Source: Candidatus Cacconaster equi (GTDB lineage Bacteria > Bacteroidota > Bacteroidia > Bacteroidales > UBA932). Taken from it: a stretch of DNA of 64,000 nucleotides. This document shows, piece after piece, positions 35,037 through 45,896 of the stretch (its first letter is position 1; the number at the start of each line of letters is the position of its first letter). The translations under genes and the position numbers were made by a program. The DNA lies in contig JAGHSK010000017.1 in NCBI GenBank assembly GCA_018065895.1, positions 1-64,000 on the forward strand, written 5' to 3'. Below the pieces are notes generated by a model. That model ran no database searches, was not told the origin of the DNA, and was given only the letters and a program-made list of their open reading frames with translations.

Positions 35037-37460
35037 ATGAAAAAATTACACACGTACCTGATACGACAATTCATAGGACCGTTCTTCGCCGTTCTGTTCG
35101 TTGTTGTGTTCGCGCTTGCTCTCGAGTTTCTCTGGGTTTATATCGATGAACTCGTGGGCAAGGGGCTGGGGCTTGGTGTGATTTTCGAATTCATGGCCTG
35201 GGCCTCGGCAACACTGCTGCCGCTTGCGCTTCCGCTTGCCACGCTTCTGGCCTCAATCATGACTCTCGGCAATCTGGGAGAGAGGAATGAGCTTCTGGCA
35301 ATGAAGGCGGCAGGCATCTCACTGAGCAGAATCCTGGTACCACTTTTCGCGGTTTCGCTTCTGATAAGCATAGGGGCTTTTTTTGCTTCTAATAATCTTG
35401 TTCCTGTAGCATACAACAAGATATATTCGCTCAGAGCCGACATAGCCCGGACAAAAAATGAAATAAAGATTCCTACGGGGACATTTTATGACGGAATCGA
35501 CGGTTATGTTCTGCGCATCGAATCCCGCGACGATGACGGAATGATGCACAACCTGATCATCTATGACCATACCGACTACGGGGGAAACACCAATATGATT
35601 CTTGCGGAGTCAGGAAAGATCAATACAACCGGCAACAAGAACGACATCATTTTCGACCTTTACAACGGATGTTCCTACCAGGAGGATAATAATATAACCT
35701 TGAGCGACACCACCGTCGAGCTCAGCAGAATCTCATTTGATTACCAGAAAATCATTATTCCACTGGAGAATTACAGTTTCTCACGTTCAGAAGATAACGA
35801 ATTCGGCAACGAAGTGATGGCCCGCAACCTCCGCGGACTTATCCACGACAAGGATTCCATTGCCCATGCCATTGACTCCCTGAAGAATTTCCAGTACGAC
35901 AGGTTCATAAGCAGCACCGGACTTGTCCATCTGAGCCAGCTTGACACTTCAGCCAACCGGAACCGCTATTTGGAGGGCATCGACATTGATAAAGTATATT
36001 CAAATATAGACCAAAGCAAGGAACGCTCTGCCATTCAATCAAAATTGGACGAATTCACGAGAGATGCCGACCTTGTGGACAGGTTCGTTTGGGAGAGAAA
36101 ACACTATCAGGAGACCTACTACATAACTGACGTGGAAGCGTATCGCAAGTTCACTCTCTCCATTGCCTGCCTTCTTTTCTTCTTCATAGGGGCCCCTCTC
36201 GGCGCCATTATCCGGAAGGGCGGACTTGGAACCCCGGTTATTATTTCGGTCTTCTTCTTCCTTGTATATTATGTCATTGACACTGTAGGCAAACGTCTGG
36301 CCAGGGCCGGAGCAATGACTCCTTTTGCAGGAGCATTCATCTCCGCGGCAGTGCTCCTGCCTATCGGAATTTTCCTCACCAGACAATCTACCCGTGACTC
36401 AGCCATCTTCAATATGGATTTCTACAAAGAATTGTTCAAGACCATAAATCGAAAAATTTCAAAGACATACCATCGTTTTATGAACCGTCTGACCATCAAG
36501 GGCGGAGGAAGAATCCGCATCGTGTTCATGGGGACTCCGGAGTTCGCCGTTGCGCAGCTCGATGCCCTGATGAACAGCGAATATGAGGTAGTTGCAGTGG
36601 TTACCGTACCTGACAAGCCTAGTGGACGAGGTCTTGAAGTCAATGAAAGCGCCGTCAAAAAATACGCTGTAGCCCACAACCTTCCGGTACTTCAGCCAGT
36701 CAAGCTGAAAGATCCCGAATTTCTTGAACAGCTTCGTTCCTTCAATGCCACTCTTTTTGTGGTAGTGGCATTCAGAATGCTGCCGAAGGAGGTGTGGAAC
36801 ATGCCTGTTTATGGAACATTCAACCTCCACGCATCCCTTCTGCCTCAGTATCGTGGTGCCGCCCCTATCAACTGGGCCATAATAAATGGGGAGAAATTCT
36901 CCGGTGTAACTACATTCATGATCGACGAGCAGATTGACACTGGAAAGATATTATTCCAGGAATCCTGTGCAATTGAAGAATATGAATCTGCCGGTGATCT
37001 TCACGACAAACTGATGAAAATGGGATGCGACCTTGTACTCAAGACAGTTGATGCCATCGAAAATCATCAGGCCAAGCCTTACGATCAGCAACTCGGAATG
37101 AGTAAGGTGCTCAAACCGGCGCCTAAGTTGACAAAAGAGCTATGTCATATCGATTGGAACGGTGACGTGGAGGAAATAGCACATCTTATCAGAGGCTTGA
37201 GCCCGTACCCGACAGCCTTTACAAATCTGGTTCGTGGTGACGAAGTTATCAGAGTCAAGATTTTCGATGCATACGATTCGAAGATTGACATTCCGGACCT
37301 TCCTGCAGGAGCCATCTCCCTTGACGGGAAGCATATTCAGGTCAAGTGCGGCAACGGCGTACTGCGCATCTACTCACTTCAGGTCGCAGGCAAAAAGAGA
37401 ATGAACGTGGATGCCTTCCTTCGTGGCTTCCGCGACCTCGAAACATATCACTTCGAATAA
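35037..37460 (+). CDS. LptF/LptG (YjgP/YjgQ) permease fused to methionyl-tRNA formyltransferase
   Basis: Residues ~1-481: six-TM permease with periplasmic domain; residues ~482-807: RIVFMGTPEFAVAQLDAL..FNLHASLLPQYRGAAPINWAI..GVTTFMIDEQIDTGKIL (Fmt). One uninterrupted frame. Confidence 0.9.
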   Translation: MKKLHTYLIRQFIGPFFAVLFVVVFALALEFLWVYIDELVGKGLGLGVIFEFMAWASATLLPLALPLATLLASIMTLGNLGERNELLAMKAAGISLSRILVPLFAVSLLISIGAFFASNNLVPVAYNKIYSLRADIARTKNEIKIPTGTFYDGIDGYVLRIESRDDDGMMHNLIIYDHTDYGGNTNMILAESGKINTTGNKNDIIFDLYNGCSYQEDNNITLSDTTVELSRISFDYQKIIIPLENYSFSRSEDNEFGNEVMARNLRGLIHDKDSIAHAIDSLKNFQYDRFISSTGLVHLSQLDTSANRNRYLEGIDIDKVYSNIDQSKERSAIQSKLDEFTRDADLVDRFVWERKHYQETYYITDVEAYRKFTLSIACLLFFFIGAPLGAIIRKGGLGTPVIISVFFFLVYYVIDTVGKRLARAGAMTPFAGAFISAAVLLPIGIFLTRQSTRDSAIFNMDFYKELFKTINRKISKTYHRFMNRLTIKGGGRIRIVFMGTPEFAVAQLDALMNSEYEVVAVVTVPDKPSGRGLEVNESAVKKYAVAHNLPVLQPVKLKDPEFLEQLRSFNATLFVVVAFRMLPKEVWNMPVYGTFNLHASLLPQYRGAAPINWAIINGEKFSGVTTFMIDEQIDTGKILFQESCAIEEYESAGDLHDKLMKMGCDLVLKTVDAIENHQAKPYDQQLGMSKVLKPAPKLTKELCHIDWNGDVEEIAHLIRGLSPYPTAFTNLVRGDEVIRVKIFDAYDSKIDIPDLPAGAISLDGKHIQVKCGNGVLRIYSLQVAGKKRMNVDAFLRGFRDLETYHFE

Positions 37461-38432: not shown

Positions 38433-39347
38433 TTGGTTTTGTCTGACAATAAAAAAATAGCTATCGACCCATCCGCTTTCGGCTTTCTGGACGTTGCATA
38501 TACAAAGATAGTCACGAATTCCGATATTCGTAAATCTTTTGATGAATATATTGGTTCCGGATTCTGCGCAGATATGGATTATCTGAAACGAAACGTGGAC
38601 AAACGCACTGATCCATCGCTTCTTGTGGAAGGTGCCAGTACAATTGTCTGTTTTCTGGCTCCATATGGAAAGGCAAATGGAGGAGTAGCCGGATTCGCTC
38701 AAGGCGAAGATTATCATTCAGCCGTAAAAAGAAAGCTATTTGAAGTCATATCATTTCTCAAACAGGAATCTTCAAGGATGGGGCTTTCAAGTTTCTCCGC
38801 CAGGGCATTTGTTGACAGCGCTCCTGTGGCGGAGCGGTTCTGGGCTGCCCGCTCCGGCCTCGGGTTCATCGGCAGAAACGGATTTCTGATCTCGCCGCAA
38901 TTCGGGCTGCGAACCATCATCGGAGAAATAATATGCAACCTGCCTTTTGAATTGTTCGCAGATAGAAGACCTCTTGCCGTAACTTCATGCGGAGATTGCG
39001 GGAGATGTGCGGAGGCCTGTCCTTCCAAAGCCCTGCAATGGCAGAAAGATGGATTTTCTCTTGTTGACGCGCGTAAATGTATATCCTACCACACGATAGA
39101 GTCTCACTCGACGGCGGGACATCCCGTCGACTTCAACGGATGGATATTCGGATGCGAAGAGTGTCTGGATGTCTGTCCCTGGAACAAGGAGGTTCCATCC
39201 TGGGAGGAACTGAAAAAAAACAGCGGCTATTTGCTGAATTTAAGCCGCCGGGAGTGGGCGGACATGGGTTCTGACGAGTTCAATGTGCATTTCGGTGACT
39301 CCGGACTGAAAAGGGCGGGTCTTGACAAAATAAAGAGCAATTTATGA
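38433..39347 (+). CDS. queG: Epoxyqueuosine reductase
   Basis: CGDCGRCAEACPSKAL and CEECLDVCPWNK; TTG start in the ORF track, true start uncertain. Confidence 0.9.
   Translation: MVLSDNKKIAIDPSAFGFLDVAYTKIVTNSDIRKSFDEYIGSGFCADMDYLKRNVDKRTDPSLLVEGASTIVCFLAPYGKANGGVAGFAQGEDYHSAVKRKLFEVISFLKQESSRMGLSSFSARAFVDSAPVAERFWAARSGLGFIGRNGFLISPQFGLRTIIGEIICNLPFELFADRRPLAVTSCGDCGRCAEACPSKALQWQKDGFSLVDARKCISYHTIESHSTAGHPVDFNGWIFGCEECLDVCPWNKEVPSWEELKKNSGYLLNLSRREWADMGSDEFNVHFGDSGLKRAGLDKIKSNL
38503..38510 (-). promoter_or_regulatory. Putative -7 element (TATCTTTG) for the threonine dehydrogenase gene, inside queG
   Basis: Exact TAnnTTTG on the minus strand about 80 nt upstream of ATG 38424. Confidence 0.45.
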
Positions 39348-40096
39348 TATCAAGGGAAAATAAAATTGTAATGACAGGCTCCTGTTTTTCCACTGAAATC
39401 GGAAACCGTCTGAAGGATGCAGGCTACAATATATGCCTGAATCCCTTCGGCATCCTGTTCAACCCCGCTTCCATTGCCGCCGCAATGGAACGGCTCGAAA
39501 GTGGAGAACGTTTCACGGAGAAAGACGTCATAATGCGGACGGATGATGCCGCCCTCGGCAAATTCAGTTATGTCTCTTTTTCCCATCACGGATCCTTCGC
39601 AAGACCTTCTCCTGACGAATTCATAAAGAATGCTGACAGCTCCCTTGCCGTGGCAAGGAACTTTTTTCTATCAGCTGACACCATAATCCTGACATTCGGT
39701 ACCGCTTGGGTGTTCAGGCACATATCCAGCGGAAAAATCGTCGCCAACTGCCATAAAATTCCCTCAAGGGAGTTCTCCCGCGAAATGATGGATGTTGACC
39801 GGATTGCATCTCTCTATCTGCCCATCATAAAAAGGCACCCGGAGAAACGCTGGATATTCACGGTCAGTCCTATAAGACATCCGGCCGACGGCCTGCACGG
39901 TAACCAGTTGAGCAAAGCCACGCTTCTTCTGGCCATTGAAAAGATTCAACGGCAGTGCAGTGAAAATACAGCTTATTTCCCTTCGTACGAAATAATGATT
40001 GATGAACTCCGCGACCACAGATATTATGCCTCTGACGACCTGCACCCGTCGGAAGAGGCTGTCAATATGATCTTTGAAAAATTTATTGCATTATGA
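39344..40096 (+). CDS. GSCFA-domain protein
   Basis: MTGSCFSTEIGNRLKDAGYN motif, overlaps queG by 4 nt. Confidence 0.9.
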   Translation: MISRENKIVMTGSCFSTEIGNRLKDAGYNICLNPFGILFNPASIAAAMERLESGERFTEKDVIMRTDDAALGKFSYVSFSHHGSFARPSPDEFIKNADSSLAVARNFFLSADTIILTFGTAWVFRHISSGKIVANCHKIPSREFSREMMDVDRIASLYLPIIKRHPEKRWIFTVSPIRHPADGLHGNQLSKATLLLAIEKIQRQCSENTAYFPSYEIMIDELRDHRYYASDDLHPSEEAVNMIFEKFIAL

Positions 40097-42246
40097 AACA
40101 TACCATCACACTTTTGACATTGCTGCTTTCAGTTGCGCTGAGCGCCCAGAATCCACACGAACTGCTGAAACAGAATCCGGAAAGATATGCAGGCGTATTC
40201 CACAGTTACGAGGTGCCATCTACAATCGTTGACACACCCGCTCCATCAGGCTACAAGCCATTCTACGTAAGCCATTACGGCAGGCACGGAAGCCGATACC
40301 TGACAAGTTATGCCGCAATGGACACTTTGTGCAGAATATTGGGCACGGCAGCGGACAAGGGATTCCTTACGGAAGAGGGTATGCTGCTTTTCCGCGACAT
40401 AAAAGAGCTGCGCGAAGTTCATCAGGGGATGCTGGGTATTCTGACCCAGAAAGGCTCGAAGGAGCATCAAGGTATCGCACACAGGCTCTTTGAGAGGGTT
40501 CCTTCCGTCTTCAGACAGAAAGACCGCAACGAAGTGATGGCAGCATCCAGCACAATCCAACGGTGCATCCAGAGCATGGCAAACTTCAATACGCAGCTCA
40601 AGGCTGACGTTCCGGGTCTCGACATAAAAATGTACACCGGAGACCGGTATATGCAATACATCCTCAAGTCCTCCAAAAAACCTCGCAACTCCAAACTTCA
40701 GAAAGCGATTTTCGATTCTGTGCTTTTGTGTTCCTTCAATCCGAACAGAGCGATGAAGGCATGGTTCAACAAACCGGATGAAGCTGCAAGGTATTTCGGG
40801 CCATACGATCCTGCCCACTTCTGCTTCCATCTCTTCTCGGAAGCCTGCATCACCCAGTGCCTTGATGAGAACCTCCATGACATTTTCTCTTATTTTTCTG
40901 ACAGTGAACTTTTCCAACTGTGGAGATGCGCCAATATGGACCACAACAACAGCATGGGCTTCACCATTGAGAACAACAGCCGGACGGACGAAACCGGACA
41001 GGTCATTCTGAGAGACATCATCGAAAAGGCCGACGCGGCAATTAGAGGCAACAACAGGGCCGCAGACCTTCGTTTCGGGCACGATTCCGGGCTTCTTCCG
41101 CTACTCAACCTCATCAGGATAAAAGGGCTTGAGAAGCCTTTGAACATGACTGAAACTTCCGAGGAAAACGGTGCTTTCATTTTTGAAATGATGCCTATGG
41201 CATCCAATCTTCAACTGATATTCTATCGCAACAGCAAAAACGACATTCTGGTAAAGCTCATCCGGAACGATATGGAAACTGTAATTCCGGAATTGCCGAC
41301 GTACAGAGGACCATATTACAAATGGGAGGAGTTGAGGGAATATTTTGCTTCATTGTGCGGATACAAGAACCTGAGACTTCTTTATTGGAATATACAAAAC
41401 GGAATGTGGGACGGGCAGGATGACAATTACGACAGATTCGTATCCTGGGTTCAGGAACAGAATCCCGACATCTGCGTATGGTGTGAAGCACAGTCGATAT
41501 ACTATAGCGGAACTGCCGACAACATGAAACCTGAGGAGCGGTTCCTTGTTGACGGATGGAATGAACTTGCCTCCCGTTACGGACACAACTACATTTATGT
41601 AGGTGGCCACCGTGACGACTACCCGCAGGTCATCACGTCAAAATATCCTATTGAGAACATTGAACGGATTGTCGGAGCAGAACCTGACAGCGTTGTGACG
41701 CACGGGGCAGGATGGGCGCAAGTTGATGTGAACGGCAAGAAAATCAACGTCGTAACTCTCCATACCTGGCCTCAGAAATGGGGTTACCGGGTGAATGACA
41801 AAGAGGCCAGCAAAGGAAGGAACGAAGGTGACCTGTACAGGAGAATGGAGATAGAATATATCTGCAACCACACGGTTCTTACCCATCCCGATGCGGCTGG
41901 GGAATTCTGGATGATGATGGGTGACCATAATGCCCGTTCACGACTGGATAATGACCTTTACAAGTATGCGGACAATGACACCAGGCTTCTCGTCCACGAC
42001 TTTATTCTCAACAACACCCCTTACATCGATGTGGTCAAAGATTTCAATCCCGGGAAATTCTTCACTTCGATGCACGGACAAAGCCGTATCGATTTTGTAT
42101 ATCTCACACCTGCCCTCAACGACAAGGTTGTAGATGCAAGGATTGTCTATGATTCCTATACGGAGCCGGTAAGAGACCCCAAGCATCTTTCCAACTTCTG
42201 GCACCCTTCAGACCACAGGCCTATAATCGTGGATTTCCAACTATGA
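40093..42246 (+). CDS. Exported histidine acid phosphatase fused to endonuclease/exonuclease/phosphatase (EEP) domain
   Basis: Signal peptide; SHYGRHGSRYLTS and RFGHDSGLLPLL (histidine phosphatase); C-terminal YWNIQNG, VWCEAQ, LHTWPQ, GDHNARS, SRIDFVY, SDHRPIIVDF (EEP). Confidence 0.88.
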   Translation: MKHTITLLTLLLSVALSAQNPHELLKQNPERYAGVFHSYEVPSTIVDTPAPSGYKPFYVSHYGRHGSRYLTSYAAMDTLCRILGTAADKGFLTEEGMLLFRDIKELREVHQGMLGILTQKGSKEHQGIAHRLFERVPSVFRQKDRNEVMAASSTIQRCIQSMANFNTQLKADVPGLDIKMYTGDRYMQYILKSSKKPRNSKLQKAIFDSVLLCSFNPNRAMKAWFNKPDEAARYFGPYDPAHFCFHLFSEACITQCLDENLHDIFSYFSDSELFQLWRCANMDHNNSMGFTIENNSRTDETGQVILRDIIEKADAAIRGNNRAADLRFGHDSGLLPLLNLIRIKGLEKPLNMTETSEENGAFIFEMMPMASNLQLIFYRNSKNDILVKLIRNDMETVIPELPTYRGPYYKWEELREYFASLCGYKNLRLLYWNIQNGMWDGQDDNYDRFVSWVQEQNPDICVWCEAQSIYYSGTADNMKPEERFLVDGWNELASRYGHNYIYVGGHRDDYPQVITSKYPIENIERIVGAEPDSVVTHGAGWAQVDVNGKKINVVTLHTWPQKWGYRVNDKEASKGRNEGDLYRRMEIEYICNHTVLTHPDAAGEFWMMMGDHNARSRLDNDLYKYADNDTRLLVHDFILNNTPYIDVVKDFNPGKFFTSMHGQSRIDFVYLTPALNDKVVDARIVYDSYTEPVRDPKHLSNFWHPSDHRPIIVDFQL

Positions 42247-42263
42247 GATTTTTACTATCTTTG
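42234..42263 (+). promoter_or_regulatory. Putative promoter of tgt (TTTC-N18-TATCTTTG)
   Basis: TATCTTTG at 42256-42263, only 6 nt before ATG 42270. Confidence 0.6.
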
Positions 42264-44512: not shown

Positions 44513-45802
44513 ATGGCGACAACTCAACAAAAGCAGATGAGGCTGCGTCTCATCATCATGAACTTCCTGGAATTCGCTGTCTGGGGAGCTTACCTCACAT
44601 CACAGGGCCGCTATCTGGCCAGTGTCAATCTCGGTCCGCAAATCGGATGGTTCTACTCGATTCAAGGCATCGTTTCCATCTTCATGCCAGCACTCATAGG
44701 CATCGTTGCCGACAAGTGGATCCCGGCACAGAAAGTTCTCAGTCTGTGCCATCTCCTCGCTGGAGCTTTCCTGATTGCAGCCGGCTGCTACGGACAGGCT
44801 GCAGGTGATGCTGTGCAGTTCGGCACAATATTCACGTTGTACTCACTCAGCGTAGCCTTCTTCATGCCTACGCTGGCCCTTGCCTATTCTGTATCATATT
44901 GCGCACTTGACAGCGTGCAGATGGACACAGTGAAGGATTTTCCTCCTATCCGCGTATTCGGCACAATCGGATTCATCTGCTCGATGTGGTTCGTCGACCT
45001 GACGGGATTCCAGAATAGTGCGATGCAGTACATCGCCTCCGGAGCATTCAGCCTCGTTCTCGCAGTTTACGCCTTGACGATGCCGTCTTGCCCAATCAAC
45101 AGGAATGCAGAAAAGAAGTCGCTTGTCGATGCGATGGGCCTTCGTGCCTTCACCCTCTTCAAGGATTCCAAAATGGCTGTTTTCTTCATCTTCTCCATGC
45201 TCCTCGGCATAGCTCTTCAGATAACCAACAGCTTTGCAAATCCTTTCCTTGCTTCATTTGACGGAATTCCTCAATATGCCGGGACTTTTGGAGTCAAGCA
45301 CTCGAATATGCTCATCTCCCTCTCCCAGGTATCTGAGACACTGTGTATCCTTATGATTCCTTTCTGCCTGCGCAAATTCGGAATCAAGAAGGTGATGCTG
45401 ATAGCAATGTTTGCCTGGGTACTCCGCTTCGCATTCTTCGGACTCGGAAACCCTGGTAACGGGGTATGGCTCTTCGTACTCTCAATGATAGTATATGGCG
45501 TGGCTTTCGACTTTTTCAACATTTCAGGATCCCTTTTCGTGGATACTACGACCAACACCTCTATCCGCAACAGCGCCCAGGGTCTGTTCATTATGATGAC
45601 CAATGGTATCGGCCCGGCTATCGGAACACTCGCAGCACAGGCTGTGGTCAACAAATGCACTCTCGGTCTCGAAGGAGAAGCCTTGATTGCAGGGTGGGAT
45701 AAAGCCTGGTTTATTTTCGCAGCATATGCACTGGTGCTCTTCATTCTCTTTGCAATATGCTTCAAATACAGACACGAGCCGACGGCTTCCCAAAACAAAT
45801 AA
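44513..45802 (+). CDS. MFS transporter, nucleoside:H+ symporter (NupG)-like
   Basis: Twelve-TM hydrophobicity, MNFLEFAVWGAYLTSQGRYL N-terminus typical of the NupG family. Confidence 0.85.
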   Translation: MATTQQKQMRLRLIIMNFLEFAVWGAYLTSQGRYLASVNLGPQIGWFYSIQGIVSIFMPALIGIVADKWIPAQKVLSLCHLLAGAFLIAAGCYGQAAGDAVQFGTIFTLYSLSVAFFMPTLALAYSVSYCALDSVQMDTVKDFPPIRVFGTIGFICSMWFVDLTGFQNSAMQYIASGAFSLVLAVYALTMPSCPINRNAEKKSLVDAMGLRAFTLFKDSKMAVFFIFSMLLGIALQITNSFANPFLASFDGIPQYAGTFGVKHSNMLISLSQVSETLCILMIPFCLRKFGIKKVMLIAMFAWVLRFAFFGLGNPGNGVWLFVLSMIVYGVAFDFFNISGSLFVDTTTNTSIRNSAQGLFIMMTNGIGPAIGTLAAQAVVNKCTLGLEGEALIAGWDKAWFIFAAYALVLFILFAICFKYRHEPTASQNK

Positions 45803-45822
45803 CAAATCCGTTCATCATATTC

Positions 45823-45847
45823 AAAAGCCGGCGCCCTGCCGGCTTTT
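45823..45847 (+). terminator. Intrinsic terminator after the MFS gene
   Basis: AAAAGCCGGC-GCCCT-GCCGGCTTTT then TTTT. Confidence 0.85.
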
Positions 45848-45896
45848 GTTGTTTTTGGTATAATTTTCGTAATTTCGACAGGAAAACGTCAGTACA

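Follow-up and report, generated by a model that had tools for sequence, protein, structure and literature searches.

Among the known systems closest to the protein analysed here are MINPP phosphatases of gut Bacteroidales. BtMINPP of Bacteroides thetaiotaomicron acts on InsP6 in the periplasm and in outer-membrane vesicles (PMC3969271), and an HAE proton-donor triplet is the motif that defines MINPPs (PMC7762957, PMC3969271). A second solved structure, 7r5y from Prevotella, is called a MINPP by its depositors and reads HD at this position. We analysed a window of 64,000 nucleotides from Candidatus Cacconaster equi, whose genus (GTDB Bact-11, family UBA932, Bacteroidales) is found in the guts of horses and other mammals (PMC8957277). 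The window encodes a histidine phosphatase (HAP) domain joined to an EEP domain, a fusion for which we found no paper in the open-access literature. The HAP+EEP architecture is new and, in our sample, confined to a narrow gut lineage; its parts are known kinds of enzyme.

The fused reading frame and its two catalytic halves

Positions 40093-42246 of the window (+ strand) form a single ORF of 717 aa with zero internal stops. This agrees with the initial annotation, which had read the locus as one exported polypeptide carrying two hydrolase domains. Judged by eye, the N-terminus has the typical look of a signal peptide, which makes the protein a candidate for export. The features of the ORF are as follows.

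40093-40146, + strand: probable type I signal peptide (MKHTITLLTLLLSVALSA then QN), assigned by eye from the sequence
40153-41355, + strand: branch-2 histidine phosphatase domain, residues ~21-421 (Pfam PF00328, PDB 7r5y, Foldseek)
40282-40296, + strand: RHGSR motif, residues 64-68, with nucleophile H65, invariant among HAP relatives
40561-40563, + strand: R157, third phosphate-binding Arg, invariant and aligned with the corresponding BtMINPP Arg
41080-41085, + strand: HD proton-donor motif, residues 330-331 (HDSG, against HAE in MINPP), from the alignment and PMC7762957, PMC3969271
41353-41388, + strand: fusion junction LCGYKNLRLLYW, with almost no linker, kept in all three fusions
41365-42243, + strand: EEP domain, residues 425-717 (Pfam PF03372, AlphaFold pLDDT 93.6, Foldseek)
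41389-41391, + strand: N433 of WNIQNG, metal/phosphate site, invariant
41485-41487, + strand: E465 of CEAQ, metal ligand, invariant
41761-41763, + strand: H557 of TLHTW, invariant
41923-41931, + strand: D611 and N613 of GDHNAR, invariant
42091-42093, + strand: D667 of RIDFVY, invariant
42211-42216, + strand: D707 and H708 of SDHRP, invariant

A missed stop or frameshift near position 41370 had been named as what would undo the two-domain reading. We rule out such an artefact because intact, in-frame fusions with the same junction occur in two more MAGs, one of Candidatus Cacconaster merdequi (L003/L094; 73% identity to the window protein) and one from another genome of the genus (L007/L056; 61% identity). 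The three independent genomes share the junction CGY[KR]NLRL[LV]YWNIQNG, and substitution rates by codon position across it (0.25/0.10/0.45) are those of coding sequence, which likewise argues that the junction is genuine. By this pattern, the junction looks to be under purifying selection.

The HAP half scored 31.1 bits against Pfam His_Phos_2 (PF00328; cut-off 23.6). A PDB sequence search matched residues 23-420 to the HAP/MINPP chain of 7r5y (E 4e-43) and the HAP half to BtMINPP (E ~1e-35). The nearest structure is 7r5y, at 29% identity and, for the HAP half of the full-length model, a Foldseek TM score of 0.90 (target-normalised). Residues R64, H65, R68, R157, H330, and D331 are invariant in an alignment of 26 HAP relatives; the RHGxR motif, the third Arg, the HD proton donor, and the above-cut-off Pfam score together place this half in branch 2 of the histidine phosphatases. 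The MINPP hallmark HAE triplet is absent: residues 330-333 read HDSG, and HD is invariant in all 26 relatives. Phe36 occupies the position of BtMINPP Ala31 in the alignment. On its sequence, we therefore describe the HAP half as a branch-2 histidine phosphatase of HD type whose fold is MINPP-like, and do not regard it as a canonical MINPP. The genus also has HAP paralogues (L080-L084) in a glycan-utilisation locus, where their neighbours are GH9, GH2 exo-glucosaminidase-like, ROK, and SusCD genes; specificity may therefore differ among HAPs.

For the EEP half, the Pfam family Exo_endo_phos (PF03372; cut-off 24.5) gave 26.1 bits on the isolated half and 23.9 on the whole protein. Structural prediction bore out the proposed EEP fold (mean pLDDT 93.6; Foldseek probability 1.0, E 2e-15), and the best Foldseek matches were nucleases (ExoIII/APE1/LINE-1 endonuclease). 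N433, E465, H557, D611, N613, D667, D707, and H708 are invariant in an alignment of 28 EEP relatives; this complete catalytic set (N, E, H, D/N, D, D/H) and the four-layer fold of the model are those of the EEP superfamily. With full residue sets, invariant among aligned relatives, both catalytic sites appear intact, as originally proposed. The residue at position 557 is His in EEPs of the DNase I/SMase type (also in 5-phosphatase) and Tyr in ExoIII/APE1. The EEP half scored 18 bits against TIGR00633 (ExoIII/AP endonuclease; cut-off 99.05); this score, the predicted export, and the His for Tyr dismiss an AP-endonuclease identity. In the full-length AlphaFold model the EEP half came out poorly, being covered by no more than three fusion rows, so that the model gave no reliable inter-domain arrangement.

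Distribution and origin of the fusion

The genus was represented by 40 genomes, most of them unfinished drafts (completeness is 84% for the assembly that holds the window); 17 carry the EEP half and only 3 carry it fused. No fusion was present elsewhere in a search sample of ~1,200 genomes in total, which took in 200 genomes from the family, 393 from the order, 396 from the phylum, and 150 from Rikenellaceae. In sister species, the chromosomal slot of the fusion has QueG/GSCFA and an NAD-dependent epimerase at one end and NupG-LptG-Tgt at the opposite end. This slot holds HAP alone in four genomes (G195, G104, G068, and G053) and EEP alone in two (G115 and G183). The fused proteins form a single clade in both domain trees (support 100/97 for HAP and 98/94 for EEP), and the HAPs and EEPs from the slot fall in the clades next to it, a placement less well supported for EEP (92/88). 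At exactly the position of the fusion junction, most stand-alone EEPs have a signal peptide, lipobox, or TM anchor.

From the gene order and the trees, we infer as the probable origin a single fusion of two adjacent genes, each for an exported enzyme, with loss of the second (EEP) signal peptide. A fused ancestor that later lost one half or the other is less likely, since EEPs outside the genus also stand alone with export signals. A mobile-element or viral origin was rejected: viral contigs held no EEP relative, and plasmids gave only HAP-like partial matches.

Several larger EEP ORFs (L068, L073, L075, L130, and L136-L139) were discarded as candidate HAP fusions; their N-terminal parts are not HAP and have no Pfam match. 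One of them, at positions 4236-5786 of L068 (genome G068), joins EEP to a different N-terminal region of ~215 aa, so that the genus has another type of EEP fusion besides HAP+EEP. Five others (L130 and L136-L139) encode EEP proteins of 800+ aa that look exported and either adjoin SusC/SusD pairs or form tandem arrays with two or three members.

Gene neighbourhood and possible function

The immediate surroundings of the fusion include the following features.

38433-39347, + strand: QueG-like epoxyqueuosine reductase (TIGR00276, 182 bits, below the cut-off of 200)
39344-40096, + strand: GSCFA-family protein (Pfam PF08885), a conserved neighbour with a 4-nt overlap (ATGA) with the start of the fusion
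42256-42263: Bacteroidetes-type -7 box TATCTTTG, found by eye, 6 nt upstream of the start codon of tgt
44513-45802, + strand: nucleoside permease (Nuc_H_symport, nupG; Pfam PF03825, E 9e-112)

The TATCTTTG box, read by eye, suggests that tgt-lptG-nupG could be transcribed separately from the fusion, with a tgt transcript that is separate or nearly leaderless. A terminator-like hairpin follows the nucleoside permease gene at 45822-45848. In G195 and G068, a stand-alone HAP gene starts 2 nt after nupG on the same strand. Since tgt-lptG-nupG is a conserved gene-order block of these genomes, the proximity of nupG to the fusion may reflect synteny rather than function. Queuosine salvage, raised by the QueG and Tgt neighbours, was set aside: tgt-lptG is a common block, and nothing further supported the idea. 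Rfam matches to RNA regulators were absent near the window gene and in five purine-operon loci. Also in the window, positions 35037-37460 (+ strand) encode an LptF/LptG-type permease and methionyl-tRNA formyltransferase (Fmt) in one ORF. A second species of the genus has the same LptF-Fmt ORF (L079, 11565-14003, - strand); the lengths are 807-812 aa, ATC stands where the Fmt start codon would be, and the in-frame fusion looks conserved.

Stand-alone EEPs, as distinct from the fusion itself, show a recurrent link to purine genes. Among the 10 Rikenellaceae genomes having an EEP orthologue, 8 carry it directly after purL inside a purine-biosynthesis operon (L005, L128, L129, and L131-L135). The makeup of the operon varies (purE-K-L-EEP-C-F-M-N-H or purE-L-EEP-M-N-H), and the EEP gene always adjoins purL. 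These EEPs are 56-66% identical to the EEP half of the window protein. They are predicted to be exported, several with lipoprotein signals, whereas the rest of the pathway is cytoplasmic. Scavenging of purines is the most sensible role for an exported hydrolase that belongs to a purine regulon. The idea that purine auxotrophy drives such scavenging was unsupported; the window genome has purM.

We favour degradation of nucleic acids or nucleotides to nucleoside and phosphate, a reading to which we give about an even chance, because EEP orthologues sit behind purL and the fusion's own cluster contains a nucleoside permease. Other EEP paralogues beside SusC/SusD outer-membrane uptake pairs also speak for it. 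The two-site enzyme would be located in the periplasm or in outer-membrane vesicles. Its EEP half, as a metal-dependent phosphodiesterase/nuclease, might cut nucleic acids or other nucleotide phosphodiesters, and the HAP half might then strip the terminal phosphate from the resulting nucleotides; inositol phosphates and further phosphomonoesters would probably be substrates of this half too. Nucleosides would finally be imported by the permease of the same cluster, with phosphate released. The initial annotation had proposed a phosphorus-scavenging machine. What stands of that proposal is an exported-looking protein with two intact hydrolase domains; a general phosphorus-scavenging action on phytate or lipid headgroups is its conjectural part. 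The phosphatase half, MINPP-like in fold, has HD in place of HAE. The purine-operon EEPs and the nucleoside permease point to nucleic acids and nucleotides.

We rank phytate/phosphorus scavenging next, then unrelated co-secretion, and lipid/glycan remodelling last. A scavenger of phytate and organic phosphate, in which a MINPP-like HAP would act on dietary inositol phosphates and the EEP would yield phosphomonoesters from any phosphodiesters, is the strongest of these rivals and a serious one for the phosphatase half, though less likely than nucleotide scavenging. The phosphatase half may be a phytase, given that its nearest solved structures, 7r5y of Prevotella sp. CAG:617 and BtMINPP, are MINPPs acting on InsP6, and its HD and aromatic F36 at the BtMINPP Ala31 position resemble PhyA phytase (PMC3969271). 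Against this reading, the MINPP hallmark is missing, EEP orthologues track with purine genes, and a Pfam scan of the immediate neighbours revealed no phosphate or inositol uptake genes. The rarity of the fusion (3 of 40 genomes in the genus, and no case in the rest of the sample), its near absence of linker, and the occurrence of either gene without the other in the slot of sister species would all fit an accident, in which a deletion joined two unrelated exported enzymes that are tolerated, work independently, and share no pathway. Such an accident seems improbable: the fusion is kept at 61-73% identity, with its junction sequence conserved and both active sites and the junction apparently under purifying selection.

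Remodelling of lipids or surface glycans appears slightly less probable again. Here the EEP would be a sphingomyelinase/phospholipase C-like enzyme or phosphoinositide phosphatase, and the HAP would dephosphorylate the released headgroup or a phosphorylated glycan. His557, shared with non-ExoIII EEPs such as SMase and 5-phosphatase, is compatible with this reading, as are the HAP paralogues beside GH9, GH2, and SusCD and the lptG gene near the fusion. The window protein, however, matched no lipid-specific EEP family in NCBIfam; its best folds are nucleases, though fold does not fix substrate, and tgt-lptG is a general synteny block.

Returning to nucleotide scavenging, a broader version of it, in which these EEPs of Bacteroidales are secreted nucleases of the purine regulon and in one genus became fused to a nucleotidase beside a nucleoside permease, is possible but tentative. 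If true, it would describe a secreted nuclease co-expressed with de novo purine synthesis and a one-polypeptide converter of nucleic acid to nucleoside. Fusions are natural clues to shared pathways, and here a phytase-like phosphatase is tied to an enzyme resembling nucleases. Together with the purine-operon position, the fusion suggests, in a testable form, what two uncharacterised groups of enzymes exported by gut Bacteroidales may act on, and it would bear on the competition of gut bacteria for nucleotides and phosphate.

Comparison with known systems

The Prevotella sp. CAG:617 MINPP/HAP (7r5y) resembles the window protein in fold (TM 0.90 to the target), in its RHGSR and HD motifs, and in being a gut Bacteroidales enzyme; it differs in lacking an EEP domain and in sequence (29% identity), and the substrate of the window protein is a prediction. 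BtMINPP (4fdt, 5cx4) shares the overall fold, length, and RHGxR nucleophile motif and, as judged by eye, a signal peptide, but has HAE where the window protein has HDS and Ala31 in place of Phe36, and likewise no EEP domain. EEP nucleases of the ExoIII/APE1, LINE-1 endonuclease, and DNase I types have the same fold and full set of catalytic residues; unlike ExoIII/APE1, the window protein is predicted to be exported, scores 18 bits against a cut-off of 99, and has His at the APE1 Y171 position. The stand-alone EEP lipoproteins and secreted proteins of Bacteroidales (such as L004, L005, and L132-L134) are 56-66% identical to the EEP half, whereas each is encoded by a separate gene with its own export signal, which in Rikenellaceae lies inside a purine operon.
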